From positions 1-47,817 of the IMG/VR virus record IMGVR_UViG_3300045926_000043: DNA of 47,817 nucleotides. The stretch is one strand, 5' to 3'. Source of the DNA: a virus. Below are positions 1 through 47,817 of this stretch, piece after piece. Numbering within the stretch: the first letter of the stretch is position 1; the number at the start of each line of letters is the position of its first letter. The position numbers and the translations under genes are program-made. Below the pieces are notes generated by a model that had not been told where the DNA came from, did not search any database, and was given only the letters and a program-made list of their open reading frames with translations.

Positions 1-127
1 TTGAGCAGTGCCTCAGCTTGTTTCTGTCCCGCCCCGCCGAGCGCCCCGGATTTCGCAGACGCCTGCAAGTTCTTGATGACGCGCTCGACTTCCTCGAGCT
101 CGATCTTCAGATTCTGTAGCGGCGTGC
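1..127. repeat. Terminal direct repeat, left copy (circular overlap)
   Basis: These 127 bases are identical to the last 127 of the window (47691-47817). The exact match, and the tape-measure reading frame passing through it without interruption, show that the two ends are the same stretch of a circular or circularly permuted genome. A length of 127 is a common assembly k-mer size, so this is probably an assembly overlap rather than a true packaged terminal repeat (inference). Confidence 0.95.
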
Positions 128-3042: not shown

Positions 3043-3239
3043 CGGAATTTGTCGATGTGCTCTTGCACAAACTGAATGCCGGCCTTGATCTGCTCCTCAT
3101 CCGCCGTGCGCTCGACCGTGATCGTCACAATCTCGCCAGCGACGGCCTTGATCACCACGCTGCGCACGCGCTCCGTATTGACGCCAAACGCCTCGCATAG
3201 CTCCTTAGTGAAATCTACCGCCAGGCGTCTATCACCCAT
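3039..3239 (-). CDS. Small acidic protein of unknown function in the head-tail cluster
   Basis: This 66-residue protein begins MGDRRLAVDFTKELCEAFG and includes VVIKAVAGEIVTITVERTADEEQIKAG. I do not recognise the family. A good Shine-Dalgarno (GAGGT, 9 nt upstream) supports the ATG at 3239. The gene overlaps the end of the GT8-like glycosyltransferase by 25 nt and the next gene by 4 nt, so it is co-translated with the structural genes. The alternating strand-helix pattern suggests a folded domain, possibly a connector accessory protein (inference). Confidence 0.65.
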   Translation of the reverse strand: MGDRRLAVDFTKELCEAFGVNTERVRSVVIKAVAGEIVTITVERTADEEQIKAGIQFVQEHIDKFR

Positions 3240-3844
3240 TGATCCGATACCTCGTGAGGATCCGGCTTACCGTGAAACGCGATCACCGATGCGCCGACCG
3301 GCGGGCTGCCTTGAGCGCGGCAGTGCCGCTTGTACGACATACAGACACCGTCAGGAATGATCGTCGCGCGATGCTTGAACATCATCGTGATCCAGTCTTG
3401 ATCGCCGTACGGATGCAGACGATCAATCACGTGCTGCCCGAATTGATGCCAAATCGGCGCCGTCTTTCCGCGCCCGTTTGTGATCATGATGCAACCAGCA
3501 AGTGCACCAGATCCCCAGTCGATGGGCATTGCAAGATCGCACTCAAAATATTCTGCGACCCATTCCAGCGAGCCAACCATGACAACGTCGAGGTCGAAAT
3601 AGACCGTCGGTGTCGTCAACACTCCGGGCTTGAAAAGCCCGATTTTCTGCCACCAGCCCGGCCACTCGCACGTGAGCGGCAAGCAATCCACGCCCTCGAC
3701 AGGCTTTTCAGTGAAGCATTCGAACGTATGAGGCAACGAAAGATGCCGTGCCACCATGGATTTCAGTCTGAGCGGATATTCGTCCGAGTATTTGTCGCCC
3801 CACTTCACGCAGACGACGCGGATCGGGTCCAAAGATGCCCCCAC
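3215..3844 (-). CDS. GT8-like glycosyltransferase
   Basis: This 209-residue protein has an N-terminal nucleotide-binding strand (IRVVCVKWGDKYS) and the metal-binding DxD in VYFDLDVVMVGSL (D84, D86). Further motifs are GDQDWI (147-152) and a late HGKPDPHE motif (191-198). The order resembles retaining GT-A enzymes of the GT8 type, which transfer a sugar from a nucleotide-sugar. The chosen start is GTG 3844, because later starts would remove the first Rossmann strand. It overlaps the upstream GT2 gene by 40 nt. Its place inside the connector operon suggests glycosylation of a virion protein or host surface during assembly (inference). The acceptor is unknown. Confidence 0.75.
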   Translation of the reverse strand: MGASLDPIRVVCVKWGDKYSDEYPLRLKSMVARHLSLPHTFECFTEKPVEGVDCLPLTCEWPGWWQKIGLFKPGVLTTPTVYFDLDVVMVGSLEWVAEYFECDLAMPIDWGSGALAGCIMITNGRGKTAPIWHQFGQHVIDRLHPYGDQDWITMMFKHRATIIPDGVCMSYKRHCRAQGSPPVGASVIAFHGKPDPHEVSDQWVIDAWR

Positions 3845-4479
3845 TTGCGTTGTAACCGATCACGGTTAGATTCGCCGCTCACCTCGTACACATGCGGCGT
3901 CCGATAGTGATAGACCGGCGTTTCGCTCAGTCTGAAACGGGCTCCGGCGGCGTGGAGGGACCAAAGCCAATCGTTGTCCTCGCAGCCGCGTCCCTGACGG
4001 AAGCTCGGATCGAAGCCGCCAACTCTCTCGAAAAGGTCGCGTCGTAGCAGTGCAGCAAAGTGGAAATGTGCACCTTGAGGTACCGGGAGTCGCCCAGCTG
4101 CGGAATAGTCAACCCCGCGACCGGCGAGCACAGTGCCGTCCGCATCAATGCACGGCGCGACAACATAGTCGTTCTCCGTCTCGAGTAGCGCGAGCATCTC
4201 GTCCAGCACCGGCTCGCGATGCTCGACTTCCGGGTTCGTGAGCACGATCACGTCACCGATCGACGCTCGCACCGCAGCGTTCATCGACACGCACGGATTC
4301 AACCCGACGTTTTTGCGTGGCAGCGTCGTTACGATACAGCCCGGAGCCACCACCGGCACAGGCGACCCGTCATCACAGATCGAAATCTCGATGCCGTCCC
4401 CGTAGTGCTTTCGATACGCCGCGAGCGACCTATCGAGCTCCTGCTGCCGCATCCAATACGGCATGCAGATTGAAATCAT
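3805..4479 (-). CDS. GT2-like glycosyltransferase
   Basis: I start this protein at ATG 4479, which overlaps the radical SAM stop (ATGA), giving 224 residues. It shows MISICMPYWMRQQELDRSL, the first strand and helix of a GT-A fold. This is followed by SICDDGSP (the acidic nucleotide-binding pair), NPCVSMNAAVRAS, a late VGGFDPSFRQGRGCEDNDW with the ED catalytic-base region, and a basic C-terminus. This is the family 2 inverting glycosyltransferase pattern. The usual DxD is replaced by NPEVE. It is probably a partner of the GT8-like enzyme directly downstream. Confidence 0.8.
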   Translation of the reverse strand: MISICMPYWMRQQELDRSLAAYRKHYGDGIEISICDDGSPVPVVAPGCIVTTLPRKNVGLNPCVSMNAAVRASIGDVIVLTNPEVEHREPVLDEMLALLETENDYVVAPCIDADGTVLAGRGVDYSAAGRLPVPQGAHFHFAALLRRDLFERVGGFDPSFRQGRGCEDNDWLWSLHAAGARFRLSETPVYHYRTPHVYEVSGESNRDRLQRKWGHLWTRSASSA

Positions 4480-5519
4480 ACGAACGCCGGATGCGTAGGC
4501 TCTTGAACGAGCGCACTGATCGCCCGGTTTTGCCCCAAAAACTGACAGTGCTGGCACTGCCGAGCGTCGAAAGCACCTCGGGCCGCGAGCACCTCGCCGA
4601 GCCGAGAGTGTTTTAAGCTGCCGATGGTGCCGCGGGTGGTGTAAGCGGTGTTGCAGCACCGGTACACGTTCAGATCAGCGCCGATGTACGTCGTGAAATA
4701 CTGATAGCCGCAAAACGGATCTTGCGGCGCACCGTCTTGCAAGTCTCCGACCCGTCGGCCGAATAGGTCGATCACCTCGAAACCGTCGCCGTTGCATTCT
4801 TTGGCTTCGGCGATCGCTTCGTAGATGCTGGAAATCAGCCCGCCGTAGTACCCCGCGCCTTCGCTCGAGAACACTGCTCCGACGCGCATGTTGCTTGCGC
4901 CGGCCGCTTTGGTCATAGCTGCAGCCGCCTTGATGCCGCGCCAGTTCTCTTTCGTCACGACAAACCCAATCCCTAGCGCACCAGTAAATCGCGCCGCGAA
5001 CGCAGCCACGTTGCGCCACACGGCGTCCCAGTGAGTCGTCGACACACCACGAATACTCGCATACGTCTCGGCATCGCCAGCGTCGACACTCACCCGAACC
5101 CATTGCATACCAAGAAACGCGGGCGATGCCTTGAGCTTCACGCCGTTCGTGACGAGCGCCGTCTGCATGCCCAAAGCGCTCGCGAGCGCAAACAGGCGCT
5201 CGTGATCCTTATGAACCGTCGGCTCGCCGCCACCAGTGAACTGAATCGCTTTGACCCCAAGCGCGGCGCAATCGCGGATGATCTCCTCAGCCCTCAGGGT
5301 CTCGATGCGCCGGTTCGGGTTGTGCGTCTCCGGCGTCACGAACAGCTCGCGCGACAACCCCGCCGACATCCGATAGGCACAGAACGAGCAGTCTTGATTG
5401 CAGAGGTCCGACAGAATCAGCTGCACATGCACCGGAGCCGGATTCTTCCCTGCCCGTAGCGCCTCGATGCGGTCGAGATGCCAGGCCGGCTTAAGCTGTG
5501 AGTAGCTTAGGTTCACCAT
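4476..5519 (-). CDS. Radical SAM enzyme with SPASM-like C-terminal cysteines
   Basis: With ATG 5519 as start the protein has 347 residues. C40, C44 and C47 form the CxxxCxxC cluster motif (LCNQDCSFCAY), and FTGGGEPTVH (95-104) is the SAM-binding GGE motif. The C-terminus has further cysteines at 270, 288, 289, 322 and 325 (including CQHC), suggesting an auxiliary cluster domain of the SPASM/twitch type. Such enzymes use a 5'-deoxyadenosyl radical to modify peptides, sugars or small molecules. It overlaps the methyltransferase gene upstream and the GT2 gene downstream, so all are co-expressed. A radical SAM enzyme among connector genes is unusual. The substrate is unknown. Confidence 0.85.
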   Translation of the reverse strand: MVNLSYSQLKPAWHLDRIEALRAGKNPAPVHVQLILSDLCNQDCSFCAYRMSAGLSRELFVTPETHNPNRRIETLRAEEIIRDCAALGVKAIQFTGGGEPTVHKDHERLFALASALGMQTALVTNGVKLKASPAFLGMQWVRVSVDAGDAETYASIRGVSTTHWDAVWRNVAAFAARFTGALGIGFVVTKENWRGIKAAAAMTKAAGASNMRVGAVFSSEGAGYYGGLISSIYEAIAEAKECNGDGFEVIDLFGRRVGDLQDGAPQDPFCGYQYFTTYIGADLNVYRCCNTAYTTRGTIGSLKHSRLGEVLAARGAFDARQCQHCQFLGQNRAISALVQEPTHPAFV

Positions 5520-6024
5520 TGGTCCACACCGCAAAGAACCCGCGCCCGTAGAACGACGTCGCCCAGCTCGTGTCGAAATCTTCCGGCGTCCATCCGGAGC
5601 GGTGCCGCTGCCACTTATCACCGTCCAGACCCCACGGATCCGCGCCGTCCTGTTTCATGTATCCAACCGGCGTAAAAATCACGATCTGTTTCGGCTGCGC
5701 CATCAGCGTGAGCCGTATCACGTTGTGCCCGTCCTCGCGCGTCATGTGCTCGATCACATCAAGCAGGTAGATCGCATCGACTTTGCCTGGCTTGACATGG
5801 CTGAGTGCCTCGCTTGCTGTCGCAAGCACGCACTCATAGCCACCGACTGCGGCGATTCGGTCGAGATACGGCTGATGCGGCTCGACGCAGATATGGTGCC
5901 GCGGTGTATACCAATTCATCGGCCGCAGACCGCAGCCGATATCGAGCACCGTGTCACACTCAATGAGTCCGCGCGGCGGTTCGAGGTTGTGCAGTATCAA
6001 ACCATTAGGCAGCCAGTCGATCAC
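5491..6024 (-). CDS. Class I SAM-dependent methyltransferase
   Basis: This 177-residue protein has motif I VLDIGCG (26-32), an acidic end of strand 2 in CVEPH, and LLDVIEHM (87-94), the motif seen in small-molecule, lipid and sugar methyltransferases of the UbiE/O-antigen type. It then has a strand-4/5 region KQIVIFTPVG. No DNA-recognition domain and no DPPY/NPPY motif is visible, so a DNA substrate is unlikely. It overlaps both neighbours and lies between the gp6-like connector and the radical SAM gene, which points to a shared modification pathway with the glycosyltransferases (inference). Confidence 0.8.
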   Translation of the reverse strand: MIDWLPNGLILHNLEPPRGLIECDTVLDIGCGLRPMNWYTPRHHICVEPHQPYLDRIAAVGGYECVLATASEALSHVKPGKVDAIYLLDVIEHMTREDGHNVIRLTLMAQPKQIVIFTPVGYMKQDGADPWGLDGDKWQRHRSGWTPEDFDTSWATSFYGRGFFAVWTNGEPKLLTA

Positions 6025-6620
6025 AAGATCCGCCAGGCGCTAATGAGCTTTTCGCGGAAATCGGCATCGAATCCGCTTTTCGTGGTCAGTAGCCCGTCGA
6101 GCTCCATCGCACCGAACACGGATGCGGTGAGCGCTCGCTTGATGTCGGCCGGCACATCTTCGACATTCCAGCCAGCAGTGAACGTGATCAGGATCGGCGA
6201 CGGAACGTCGACATCTACGCTCGGCCACGTACCGCCGCGATTCGGCATCACCCGGCCCTGATGCCCGCGCAAGTCTTCTTGGTAGTCTGTACCGATTGGA
6301 CTGCCCGACGACGGGCCACGCAGGGTGATCAACTGCCCCGCAGATGAATACACGATGCTCGTCAACGATTGCACTCTGCCGCGCGGCAAGTAAACCGTCT
6401 GATCAGCCCCGCACGGGAATGAGTCCAGAATCCATCGATGCTCTCGGGCAACGATCGACCGCCGCATCGCACCTTCAGCCCACGACACTGCGTCCGGAAT
6501 GTACTGCTGCATGATGACTTCGTCGAGGTCATCGTGAGCAATCCGCAAGTCCTGCTTAAGCAGCGCAAGATCGAGCGGGATATCCTCCGGCGCGTCAATG
6601 TCGATCGTGATCGATTTCAC
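6021..6620 (-). CDS. gp6-like head-tail connector protein
   Basis: This 199-residue protein has DIPLDLALLKQDLRIAHDDLDEVIMQQYI near the N-terminus and an alpha-helical segment with SWAEGAMRRSIV. The C-terminus is ITFTAGWNVEDVPADIKRAL, the typical 'G....vP..lk.A..l' end of gp6-like connectors. These proteins form the ring below the portal. It overlaps the DUF115-like gene and the methyltransferase gene by 4 nt each, so foreign-looking enzymes flank a core morphogenesis gene on both sides. Confidence 0.85.
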   Translation of the reverse strand: MKSITIDIDAPEDIPLDLALLKQDLRIAHDDLDEVIMQQYIPDAVSWAEGAMRRSIVAREHRWILDSFPCGADQTVYLPRGRVQSLTSIVYSSAGQLITLRGPSSGSPIGTDYQEDLRGHQGRVMPNRGGTWPSVDVDVPSPILITFTAGWNVEDVPADIKRALTASVFGAMELDGLLTTKSGFDADFREKLISAWRIL

Positions 6621-7276
6621 AGCTCACCCATGGGAAAGCAGCGCATAGCACTCTGCGTCGTACAGTTCGTAATCGAAACGCCCGGCGGCAAGTTTTTTGA
6701 CGCGTTCGTGAAAGCACGAATGAATGGTGCAAAGTCCGACCCGTTGTGTAATGCAGAAGGATGATCCCCGAAAAAGTGCTCGAGCCCACCGGTTCTCTGC
6801 ATGTCGAACCCGACGAGCTTCACATCATTCGCGCCGAACTGCAGCGCCAGATTCACGGCGGCAAAGCCTGAATTGTTGCCGTAGTGGATTTCACCCGGCA
6901 GCATGCAGAACGTGTCCCCGTCCCGAGCTATCACGAGCCGGATCCGCAACTGCTCGCACTTTCCCCAGGTTCGTTTGTCGTCATCGGTCGCAAGATTCGC
7001 CGCCTGAGAAGCCCATCGCTCGCCCTGGAACGCGATGTCACCATGCACATCCCACCAGCCACGGTCAGTCGTATACATCGCGTCAGCGAACGGTAGAAGC
7101 CGCCAGGCATCGTTCACGGCCAGGATCCGCCAGCCTTTCGCCTGTCGCGTGCGGCATATCGTTGCGACTTCCTCTGTCAATGACGGGCCGGTTGCCGCAA
7201 CGATGCACGACTCCCAGCCATCACGACGCAGCTTTGTTCTCCGGCGCGCGGCCACGCATCTTCTGCTTCGGTGCAT
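6617..7276 (-). CDS. DUF115/sialyltransferase-like Rossmann protein
   Basis: From ATG 7276 the protein has 219 residues. The key block is CIVAATGPSLTEEV, a glycine-rich strand-loop like the 'aGnGPSL' of DUF115/MptE-like proteins and CST-type sialyltransferases. It is followed by ILAVNDAWRLLPFADAMYTTD and a later LVGFDMQRTGG. The family includes nucleotide-sugar transferases and a pterin pyrophosphokinase, so the substrate is uncertain. The start is unsure: GTG 7255 is an alternative, and the first 20 residues are suspiciously Arg-rich. It lies between the capsid gene and the first connector and probably belongs to the sugar cassette downstream. Confidence 0.7.
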   Translation of the reverse strand: MHRSRRCVAARRRTKLRRDGWESCIVAATGPSLTEEVATICRTRQAKGWRILAVNDAWRLLPFADAMYTTDRGWWDVHGDIAFQGERWASQAANLATDDDKRTWGKCEQLRIRLVIARDGDTFCMLPGEIHYGNNSGFAAVNLALQFGANDVKLVGFDMQRTGGLEHFFGDHPSALHNGSDFAPFIRAFTNASKNLPPGVSITNCTTQSAMRCFPMGEL

Positions 7277-7439
7277 CCTCCTCGATGTGCCCGCGCCCAG
7301 ACCGCACACACCGCTGAGCAAGAAACTCCGACATCTGATCCGGAACCGAATAAACACCAGGCTTGAACGTCACGATCGGCCCGCCGACCGAAGAGCACGA
7401 AGCCCAGTCTCTGCCAGTGATCTTGATCTTGTATTTCAT
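7221..7439 (-). CDS. Small protein of unknown function downstream of the capsid gene
   Basis: This 72-residue protein begins MKYKIKITGRDWASCSS and contains GGPIVTFKPGVYSVPDQMSEFLAQRCV. The segment 'V.F.PG.Y.Vp..ms..LA' recurs in small ORFs next to phage capsid genes, but I cannot name a function. The C-terminus is basic. It follows the strong hairpin behind the capsid gene and overlaps the next gene. Confidence 0.6.
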   Translation of the reverse strand: MKYKIKITGRDWASCSSVGGPIVTFKPGVYSVPDQMSEFLAQRCVRSGRGHIEEDAPKQKMRGRAPENKAAS

Positions 7440-32687: not shown

Positions 32688-33179
32688 ATGGCCCAACTGC
32701 CCCTAGTGCTTGACGTTTGCTGCGGTCCTCGCGGCTTCTGGTTTGACCAGAACGACGCTCGAGCGCTGTTCGTGGACAAGAGACGCGAGACGCACACGGT
32801 AGATATCGGCACGCCTGGCACGATTGGACGCAAGGCGCTGCGCATCGAGCCTGACGTTATAGCCAGCTTCGATCAGCTCCCGTTCGCGGACGGAGCCTTT
32901 GCCCTGGTGGTGTTCGATCCGCCGCACATACAACGGCACGCTGCGCTAGGAACGATGACGAGGCGGTACGGTTTCCTCACTGGCGACTGGCAACAAATGC
33001 TGCGCCACGGCTTTGCAGAGTGTTTCCGCGTGCTTCGCGCGGATGGCGTGCTGGTGTTCAAGTGGGCCGAGAGCGACTGCCCTGTGTCGGAGATCCTAGC
33101 CCTTACCGATCAGAAACCGCTGTTCGGTCAGCAGTCGCTACGGAAACCCGCGACCCATTGGGTCGTATTTATGAAATAG
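32688..33179 (+). CDS. Small SAM-dependent methyltransferase-like protein (DPPH motif)
   Basis: This 163-residue protein has LVLDVCCGPRGFWFD (6-20) as motif I, FVDKRRE as the strand-2 acidic loop, FALVVFDPPHIQ with the catalytic-type DPPH, and a C-terminal VLVFKWAES strand. DPP[YHF] motifs are typical of methyltransferases acting on bases in nucleic acids. The small size and lack of a target-recognition domain are typical of phage versions. It is immediately upstream of the QueD-like/TGT-like pair, possibly part of the same DNA-modification module (inference). Confidence 0.75.
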   Translation: MAQLPLVLDVCCGPRGFWFDQNDARALFVDKRRETHTVDIGTPGTIGRKALRIEPDVIASFDQLPFADGAFALVVFDPPHIQRHAALGTMTRRYGFLTGDWQQMLRHGFAECFRVLRADGVLVFKWAESDCPVSEILALTDQKPLFGQQSLRKPATHWVVFMK

Positions 33180-33192
33180 TCCAACCAACACC

Positions 33193-33630
33193 ATGACGCA
33201 GAAATTCCCCACCATCCGCAAGGAGTGCAGCTTCGCAATTCGCGCGCGGCATGACCTGACCGGCATCACCAATCACCCCGATGCGATGGACGGTCTGCAC
33301 GGCCACCGCTGGACGGTGACGCTGATATGGATCGCGGAATACAACTGCAAACTCGGCTTTCAGCGTGACGAATGGTCAGTCGAGCAGTCGTGGGGTAAGC
33401 GTCTCGAAGAACTGGAAGGCGTCAACCTTTCGGAGCGGATGAAGCTACCGGCGACCGCAGAAAACTTCGCTGCGTGGTTGCTGTTCTTCTGGCTGTGCCG
33501 ACCCTCGGAGCGCGAGGTCAATTTCGAGCTGTCAGGCGTACGCGTGACTAAGGACGGCCACTCAGCAGAAATCATGCACTCAGCGACCAACAAACGCGCG
33601 TGGGAATGGTTCGGAGGCGAGGTCGCGTGA
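33193..33630 (+). CDS. QueD/6-pyruvoyl-tetrahydropterin synthase-like protein lacking the catalytic Cys
   Basis: This 145-residue protein has CSFAIRARHDL with H20 and GLHGHRWTV with H36 and H38, the three zinc-binding histidines of the PTPS/QueD family. It also has PATAENFAAWLL (86-97), equivalent to 'PTsEnla.wi'. Where QueD has its catalytic Cys, four residues before the first His of HGH, this protein has Met32. The LDHxxLN block and the late Glu are not evident either (LEELEGVN, VRVTKDGH). It may be a binding protein or catalyse a different step. QueD normally makes 6-carboxy-tetrahydropterin for queuosine or 7-deazaguanine synthesis. The next gene is TGT-like, which supports that link. Confidence 0.7.
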   Translation: MTQKFPTIRKECSFAIRARHDLTGITNHPDAMDGLHGHRWTVTLIWIAEYNCKLGFQRDEWSVEQSWGKRLEELEGVNLSERMKLPATAENFAAWLLFFWLCRPSEREVNFELSGVRVTKDGHSAEIMHSATNKRAWEWFGGEVA

Positions 33631-34259
33631 TCGTCATGCCGTCGAACAACAGCGCGATGCACCTGGGCTGGCTTGCTGGCAAGTATCCGGGGCGGATCGG
33701 TTGGTTGCTGTCGCCGGACGGATGGAGAACTCCGCACCCCTGGCTTGAGTATGCCCTCGATAACGGCGCGTACCCGGCATTTGTGAATGATCGTTCCTGG
33801 GACGACACAGCCTTCGCCCAAATGCTCGATGCCGCAAACGCGCAACCGCATCCGCCGCGGTGGGTACTCGCGCCCGATGTTGTCGCGGATAAAGACGCTA
33901 CGCTTGCTCTGTGGAAGCGTTGGCTCAATCCGCTGCGCAACTACTATTGGCCGCTCGCCTTCGCTGTCCAAGACGGAATGACCCAGGCAGACGTACCAAA
34001 AGAGGCAGACGTGATTTTCGTCGGTGGCACTACCGAATGGAAATGGTCAACGGTGTGGCAATGGTGCAAGGACTTCCCTCGCGTGCATGTCGGGCGAGTC
34101 AACGGCTACGGGCCGTTATGGGACTGCCACGACGCCGGTGCCGAGAGTTGTGACGGGACAGGATGGTTCCGCGGTGACGCGGAACAGCTCGCGGGGCTTG
34201 AGCGCTACCTCGAAGAATCCACCAACGGCGGCCGCGAGCAACAGCGGCTATTTGCGTAA
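33627..34259 (+). CDS. Compact tRNA-guanine transglycosylase-like protein (DpdA-like)
   Basis: GTG 33627 has GGAGG 9 nt upstream and overlaps the QueD-like stop (GTGA), giving 210 residues. Five motifs follow the TGT order: DNGAY (45-49, like DSGGFQ), LAPDVV with D84, FAVQDG with Q115, IFVGGT with G133-G134, and ESCDGTGW with D176 in the nucleophile position. TGT enzymes exchange guanine for a 7-deazaguanine base; phage and island DpdA relatives do this in DNA. The protein is much smaller than classical TGT (about 380 residues) and has no zinc site. I infer DNA-base exchange, with an unproven substrate. Confidence 0.6.
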   Translation: MIVMPSNNSAMHLGWLAGKYPGRIGWLLSPDGWRTPHPWLEYALDNGAYPAFVNDRSWDDTAFAQMLDAANAQPHPPRWVLAPDVVADKDATLALWKRWLNPLRNYYWPLAFAVQDGMTQADVPKEADVIFVGGTTEWKWSTVWQWCKDFPRVHVGRVNGYGPLWDCHDAGAESCDGTGWFRGDAEQLAGLERYLEESTNGGREQQRLFA

Positions 34260-46744: not shown

Positions 46745-47817
46745 TTATGGCGTCCTCAAGATTTCGGCCTGCCGAGAGTTGCGGCCGAACAGAATCAGAT
46801 CCTTTCCTTCGGTCGCCTCGCGAATGGCACCGATCAGCTGCCGTTTCATGTAGTCGTCCCAACCGAACAAGTTGCCGATGTGGACCTCGACGACGCGCTG
46901 ATTGCCACGCTCTGCCACCGTGCCACCCGCCGCAGCCGTGGCGCCTGTTCGCGTGCTGATCGGATTGGTGAACGAGCCGAGCGCGCCGTTCGACTGCATC
47001 ACATTGGCCGCTTCGGTTAATCCAGACAGGACGTTCATCGCGATAGCCTGGCCCACCGCGACGGCGCCTCGAGCCTTCACGGCATAGTAAGCCTTGAACG
47101 CAGTCGCCAATGAGGGAGGATAACCAGGAATGATTTGCGACTGGAATGCCTGAACGGCTGCCAGATCCCACGCGATTTTCGTGCGCCTGACGTTGACGAG
47201 TTTCTCGAACGCGATCGCTGCAAGCTGCACGGCTTTGTGCTCACCGAATACCGCATGCGCAAGCGCTGCGATTTGGTTTGATAAGTCAGCACGAAACTGT
47301 AGCTCTTGCAGCTTCGCCTCATGCACCGCTCCGTATTCTTCCCAGGCTGCGTTTACTGCCTGCTGCGTGCGGATGTTGTGCTGCTCTTGAAGGAACCTTG
47401 TGTATTCCTCCTCACGCTTCCTGCGGGCTTCATCGGCTTTCGCAAATACCGCATTGATATCGGCCATGCCCTCGATGCCACTGGGGCCGCCGGATAGTCG
47501 TTTGGCGTCTACACCGACTTGCAAAGCGTCGATAGATTTCAAATACGCGTCTTGAATCCCCTTCGCCGCCTCTATCTGCTCTTGATTTGCCTTGCGCTGC
47601 GCTTCGGCACGATCATTCGCTGCGGCTTCTGATCCTCGCTCGATCTGCGTGATCTGCATCAGCAAATCGGCACGGTGCGCTAGTTCTTTGTTGAGCAGTG
47701 CCTCAGCTTGTTTCTGTCCCGCCCCGCCGAGCGCCCCGGATTTCGCAGACGCCTGCAAGTTCTTGATGACGCGCTCGACTTCCTCGAGCTCGATCTTCAG
47801 ATTCTGTAGCGGCGTGC
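46745..47817 (-). CDS. Tail tape measure protein, C-terminal part (starts at 893)
   Basis: This is the continuation of the frame that starts at 893 and enters here at the right edge. From 47690 it codes for the last 315 residues and ends at TAA 46747-46745. It contains a long coiled coil (ELAHRADLLMQITQIERGSEA), a hydrophobic region (ALAHAVFGEHKAVQLAAIAFEKLV, YYAVKARGAVAVGQAIAMNVLSGL) and the end NSRQAEILRTP. The Gly/Ala-rich membrane-like stretch may help DNA entry. Confidence 0.9.
   Translation of the reverse strand, partial: TPLQNLKIELEEVERVIKNLQASAKSGALGGAGQKQAEALLNKELAHRADLLMQITQIERGSEAAANDRAEAQRKANQEQIEAAKGIQDAYLKSIDALQVGVDAKRLSGGPSGIEGMADINAVFAKADEARRKREEEYTRFLQEQHNIRTQQAVNAAWEEYGAVHEAKLQELQFRADLSNQIAALAHAVFGEHKAVQLAAIAFEKLVNVRRTKIAWDLAAVQAFQSQIIPGYPPSLATAFKAYYAVKARGAVAVGQAIAMNVLSGLTEAANVMQSNGALGSFTNPISTRTGATAAAGGTVAERGNQRVVEVHIGNLFGWDDYMKRQLIGAIREATEGKDLILFGRNSRQAEILRTP
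47691..47817. repeat. Terminal direct repeat, right copy (circular overlap)
   Basis: Identical to 1-127. It marks the overlap at which the contig closes; the unique genome length is 47,690 bp. Confidence 0.95.

Follow-up and report, generated by a model that had tools for sequence, protein, structure and literature searches.

A compact DpdA/TGT-superfamily transglycosylase-like gene coupled to a QueD-like gene in the genome of an uncultured phage

Genome and locus features

The window analyzed here is the entire viral record IMGVR_UViG_3300045926_000043 of IMG/VR (positions 1-47,817; 47,817 nucleotides). Because its ends are an identical 127-bp direct repeat (window 1-127 and 47691-47817) and a tape-measure open reading frame (ORF) of 612 aa continues across the joined ends, the record very probably represents a complete circular phage genome of approximately 47.7 kb. 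Genes for portal, capsid, protease, terminase, tail, ERF recombination and integrase functions are present. The first 25 kb of the window yielded no megablast match to phages. An unusual cargo cluster is found among the head genes on the minus strand (3215-7357), comprising a pair of glycosyltransferase-like ORFs, a small methyltransferase-like ORF, an ORF of the radical-SAM/SPASM type and a further, unassigned ORF.

The locus of interest lies on the plus strand between the ERF/DUF6948 region and the integrase gene, and its three ORFs were recovered at the coordinates assigned in the first-pass annotation. They encode an orphan DNA methyltransferase with a DPPH motif (32688-33179), a PTPS/QueD-fold protein of 145 aa (33193-33630) and a compact DpdA/TGT-superfamily transglycosylase-like protein of 210 aa (33627-34259). 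The methyltransferase call was borne out by matches to phrog_954 (3.6e-59) and to the PADLOC model MTase_II (4.7e-54), and the PTPS/QueD-fold call by a match to Pfam PTPS that lies above the cut-off (1.5e-6). The methyltransferase was considered as a module member and rejected, since no homologue recurred in the first 83 related loci examined; it is an upstream neighbor and probably lies outside the module.

The GTG start codon of the transglycosylase gene (33627) overlaps the stop codon of the QueD-like gene (GTGA) and is preceded by GGAGG nine bases upstream, so that ribosome-binding site and start (33613-33629, plus strand) both lie within the 3' end of the QueD-like gene. Read directly in the sequence, this arrangement agrees with the translational coupling that had been proposed for the two genes. 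Both frames are intact, and their GC3 resembles that of the neighboring genes.

Fold of the compact transglycosylase

The AlphaFold2 (AF2) model of the 210-aa protein, built from 32 related sequences, reached a pLDDT of 92.5 and a pTM of 0.89 and contains eight barrel strands; as modeled, the protein is a complete minimal TIM barrel, i.e., a bare (beta/alpha)8 fold. Regarding the Foldseek search of this model against the PDB, the matches were mostly tRNA-guanine transglycosylases (TGTs; E from 5.6e-5, TM approximately 0.6), whereas the top single match was an epimerase with a different TIM barrel (1rpx). Among viral models, the matches were phage 'queuine tRNA-ribosyltransferases'. The protein matches phrog_15826 (function not known) at 2.1e-32; none of the Pfam, NCBIfam and PADLOC models matched it, and a direct HMM search of the compact-family profile against the PDB found nothing.

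Active-site conservation and profile comparisons

The five motifs in TGT order reported for the 210-aa protein at first pass are real rather than a product of chance, as their core residues are invariant across 41 members of the family, drawn from phages, plasmids and uncultured viruses. The invariant positions are D45-N46-G47, P83-D84, Q115-D116-G117, F131, G133-G134, K139, H154, N159 and D176-G177. According to the AF2 model, these residues sit where barrel strands 3 to 8 end or just beyond, with the exception of K139, which is located in the helix following strand 6. (Note that the N-terminal MIVMPSNN is invariant in alignment A1 partly because of the search patterns used.)

The profile of the 41 compact members was compared using hhalign with that of 11 phage DpdA proteins, a DpdA1 set in which dPreQ0-modified phage lineages (Seuratvirus, Rosebushvirus) are represented by their DpdA homologues, and matched it over 137 columns with a probability of 95.5% and an E-value of 1.5e-8. 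In this register D45, D84 and D176 pair with the aspartates of DSGAF, DGIGD and SCDSSSW, respectively, and the two glycines with IGG. Model, Foldseek matches and this alignment thus place D45 and D176 where the first-pass annotation had expected the active site, in a barrel of the TGT type. In all members Q115 occupies the column of the conserved active-site His of DpdA1 (position 196 in the literature), and the His is absent. The link emerged only when distant members and DpdA1 were added; an initial hhalign run of A1 alone against a narrow TGT set gave no link.

The match between the compact profile and the canonical TGT profile was not significant (1.3%); despite this weak score, Q115, the Gly pair and D176 align with VQGG, IGG and the nucleophile Asp of TGT. 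Kinship to DpdA2 was rejected, given that hhalign yielded no significant match (0.1%) to a single DpdA2 sequence of 464 aa from Vibrio phage nt-1; the relatives listed for nt-1 DpdA2 belong to other phages. The compact protein nevertheless shares with nt-1 DpdA2 the TGT superfamily, the lack of a conserved His (PMC6884629) and an association with a preQ0 operon. With DpdA1 (Seuratvirus/Nonagvirus/Rosebushvirus) it shares the order of motifs in the barrel (DSGAF / D / His-or-Gln / IGG / SCDSSSW), the occurrence in phages and the nearby preQ0 genes; it differs from DpdA1 in its length of approximately 210 aa, as against 241-386 aa in the compared set, in the replacement of His by Gln, and in its PHROG (15826 versus 887/7068). 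Taken together, the modeled fold, the aligned residues and the profile scores assign the 210-aa protein to the TGT/DpdA superfamily; of the groups compared (DpdA1, nt-1 DpdA2 and TGT), DpdA1 is the closest.

With bacterial TGT the protein has in common the fold, the likely catalytic Asp pair and the pocket formed by Gln and Gly-Gly, with the Gln at the place of Q203 and an Asp at that of D280. These features would also suit a transglycosylase acting on tRNA, by which queuosine or a precursor would be increased in host tRNA during infection. Partnership with preQ0 genes is equally consistent with tRNA queuosine, and a boosting of tRNA modification has been proposed for phages that carry preQ0 genes and no recognized DpdA (PMC6884629). 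We nonetheless consider a tRNA substrate quite unlikely, as the CxCx2C zinc motif was present in none of 149 compact proteins, compared with 17 of 18 TGTs (DpdA1 likewise lacks it), the 210 aa leave no space for a tRNA-binding domain, and the profile is nearer to DpdA1 than to TGT.

The QueD-like partner

The AF2 model of the QueD-like protein has a pLDDT of 81, and its PDB neighbors are QueD/PTPS structures. It resembles QueD/6-carboxytetrahydropterin synthase in its T-fold, the three zinc histidines (H20, H36, H38) and the TAE motif. In contrast to QueD, the catalytic Cys is replaced by Met, the Asp-His pair by Glu-Gly and the pterin-anchoring substrate Glu by Lys; the QueD equivalog model scores the protein at 24 bits against a cut-off of 89. 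Because of these four replacements, the protein is unlikely to make 6-carboxytetrahydropterin (CPH4). Regarding the 66 non-identical QueD-family members examined, about 42 possess the canonical residue set, whereas 23, nearly all from one marine clade, lack the Cys and mostly have Lys in place of Glu. The viral scan revealed no close viral relative of the QueD-like protein in the window.

Neither FolE, QueE, QueC nor the transporter YhhQ was found in the whole record, and for FolE, QueE and QueC the absence noted at first pass was confirmed in all six frames. The only radical-SAM ORF of the window (4476-5621) was evaluated as a candidate QueE and rejected, as its best models were of the SPASM/MoaA type and the QueE model matched nothing in the genome. 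Since these pathway genes are missing from a genome that is very probably complete, the host would have to supply the base, unless the pair serves another purpose. The first-pass annotation had suggested a minimal 7-deazaguanine DNA modification module. The pairing it was built on is found again in many phages, where QueC and QueE join as additional partners (see below), but a working precursor-plus-insertion module cannot be claimed for the phage in the window, owing to the residues lost from its QueD-like protein.

The same losses, and the missing FolE, QueE, QueC and YhhQ, could be taken as signs of decay, with a transglycosylase left without its supply chain and a remnant QueD-like gene, so that the pair is inert in this phage. 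Such decay appears very improbable to us, considering that both frames are intact and tightly coupled with the GC3 of their surroundings and that the transglycosylase retains every conserved residue. Moreover, the QueD-like gene lies upstream in the window, while most of the nearest QueD-bearing relatives have QueD downstream, which argues for separate acquisition and not for decay in place.

preQ0 genes beside the compact family in uncultured phages

Compact relatives were detected on at least 237 IMG/VR contigs in the second of two scans, and 80 contigs were fetched from each scan. A QueD-family gene occurs within approximately 1 kb of the compact gene in two thirds of the fetched copies, either before or after it, commonly with a four-base overlap. 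The QueD is canonical beside, e.g., the close relative from L102. QueC, QueE and a gene resembling nucleoside 2-deoxyribosyltransferase, assigned by Pfam and NCBIfam, also recur as neighbors. When the copies were clustered at 90% identity, 42 of 53 clusters had one or more of the QueD, QueC and QueE genes within 2.6 kb, and clustering at 70% identity gave 20 of 26. Among 39 longer contigs, QueC was found in nine and FolE in one; these counts are lower bounds, as many contigs are fragments. The recurrence of QueD, QueC and QueE in varying order ties the compact family to the preQ0 pathway, and no other evidence speaks as strongly for the compact protein working with preQ0-type bases as this repeated joining in differing gene orders.

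Two arrangements differ from the simple pair. In three loci (L110:8522-9774, L113 and L132) the compact gene is followed by divergent QueC and QueE, and QueD is absent. In the marine contigs L056, L075 and L080 an operon is formed by a QueD variant that lacks the Cys and has Lys for Glu, a PF05014 nucleoside 2-deoxyribosyltransferase-like gene and the compact transglycosylase gene.

Cultured phages and plasmids

Compact relatives were found in 24 records of cultured phages, all of them distant members and none from Campylobacter, Cellulophaga or archaeal viruses. Cultured carriers include Erythrobacter phage R6L. Searches with two other members of the QueD-linked core clade returned only the same 24 distant records; this clade is known here from uncultured viruses only. 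In the phages phiG7 and Sonali the compact gene is present as a separate gene in addition to a full DpdA (DpdA1) and preQ0 operon, and in phiG7 it lies between replication genes. These placements speak further against a tRNA substrate, and the job of the compact protein may be a different one in the two phages. In Escherichia phage phiG7 (L153:11938-12530), and also in SHIN8, the compact gene is divided between a pair of overlapping reading frames, which, as read from the sequence, would reflect a frameshift or programmed slippage; unlike in these two E. coli phages, it is whole in Vibrio phage R29Z.

Distant compact members, with approximately 33-39% identity over the matched part, also include the genes labeled 'DpdA-like tRNA-guanine transglycosylase' in SEA-PHAGES records of mycobacteriophages and arthrobacteriophages. 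In contrast to the QueD-linked members, these have no QueD, QueC or QueE beside them in mycobacteriophage StevieRay or Arthrobacter phage Aoka, and no preQ0 genes were detected in the fetched stretches of these two actinophages (L155 and L181). M. smegmatis has been reported to lack the preQ0 pathway (PMC6884629). Since some distant members lie near a full DpdA operon and others have no preQ0 genes nearby, the role of the compact protein may differ between branches.

Relatives with approximately 37% identity were also present on 184 plasmid records, 146 of them from Pseudomonas. Those opened (e.g., L151:9779-10669 and L152:9782-10660) are annotated as 'hypothetical' proteins, with lengths of 242 to 296 aa. 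On a Burkholderia vietnamiensis plasmid the compact relative is located near two DNA methyltransferase genes and a PAPS-reductase-like gene.

Members on plasmids and in phages that have no preQ0 genes nearby would fit a DpdA-superfamily enzyme that exchanges a base other than the preQ0 type, e.g., in a repair-like or restriction-countering role. The altered QueD variants (Met and Lys in the window protein; loss of the Cys and mostly a Lys in the 23 others), the nucleoside deoxyribosyltransferase-like partner of the marine set and the invariant Lys139 point the same way. Many members, however, adjoin canonical QueD, QueC and QueE genes, which indicates ordinary preQ0 chemistry, and we regard this alternative as unlikely. 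Lys139 lies five residues past the second Gly, at the place of E235 of TGT, the residue by which TGT reads the 7-substituent of the base. Given this substitution, one may hypothesize that the 7-substituent read by the compact protein differs. An unlikely extension of the idea would see a distinct bare-barrel DpdA lineage that installs a non-canonical 7-deazaguanine, with K139 reading another 7-substituent (e.g., the carboxylate of CDG) and the altered QueD folds having taken on a new task, in chemistry or as base carriers, in place of CPH4 synthesis.

Proposed function

The protein encoded at 33627-34259 is probably a DpdA-type guanine transglycosylase reduced to the bare barrel, which would insert a host-supplied 7-deazaguanine into phage DNA, the QueD-like protein being a vestige or having another role. 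The residue roles assumed here are those of the corresponding TGT residues. To remove guanine from the phage DNA, D176 would attack the sugar and form a covalent intermediate, with D45 as general acid/base and the base held by D84, Q115 and G133-G134; guanine would then leave and a 7-deazaguanine from the host pool enter. The modified DNA would resist host restriction, in line with the DpdA-dependent protection of phage DNA described previously (PMC6884629). In most relatives, the phage brings at least one gene of the preQ0 pathway (QueD, QueC, QueE, rarely FolE), which would supplement the host. As the sole preQ0-type gene of the window encodes a QueD-fold protein with a lost active site, its base would be supplied by the queuosine pathway of the host, and the QueD-like protein, if not a vestige, could for instance hold the base or a protein. 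In this scheme we infer DNA as the substrate, the exact base, the host supply and the protection; the fold, the conserved active site, the DpdA1 homology, the operon partners, the residue losses in QueD and the missing pathway genes are observations.

Counting against the DpdA-type reading are the non-significant TGT profile match, the Foldseek TM of approximately 0.6 to TGT, the non-TGT barrel as top PDB match and the mycobacteriophage relatives that have no preQ0 genes; the compact gene beside a full DpdA in phiG7 and Sonali and the probable inactivity of the QueD-like protein in the window also weigh against it.

The insertion of 7-deazaguanines into phage DNA is established, and the 'DpdA-like' name of distant relatives was already in use. 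What is new is the compact core family, the altered QueD partner and the finding that uncultured phages systematically pair this family with partial preQ0 operons. A compact transglycosylase family that carries no annotation is spread over hundreds of uncultured phage contigs and many plasmids. If active, the compact protein would be the smallest base-exchanging DNA enzyme of which we are aware, and many partial preQ0 operons in viral metagenomes could be interpreted as DNA modification. A survey from 2019 listed 48 phages with preQ0 genes and no recognized DpdA (PMC6884629), and in certain phages of this kind a family of the compact type could provide the inserting enzyme that is missing. Fused forms exist as well: the BFVD entry A0A0F7L9Z1, a protein of 499 aa from an uncultured marine virus, includes the compact barrel (TM 0.80, 29% identity).
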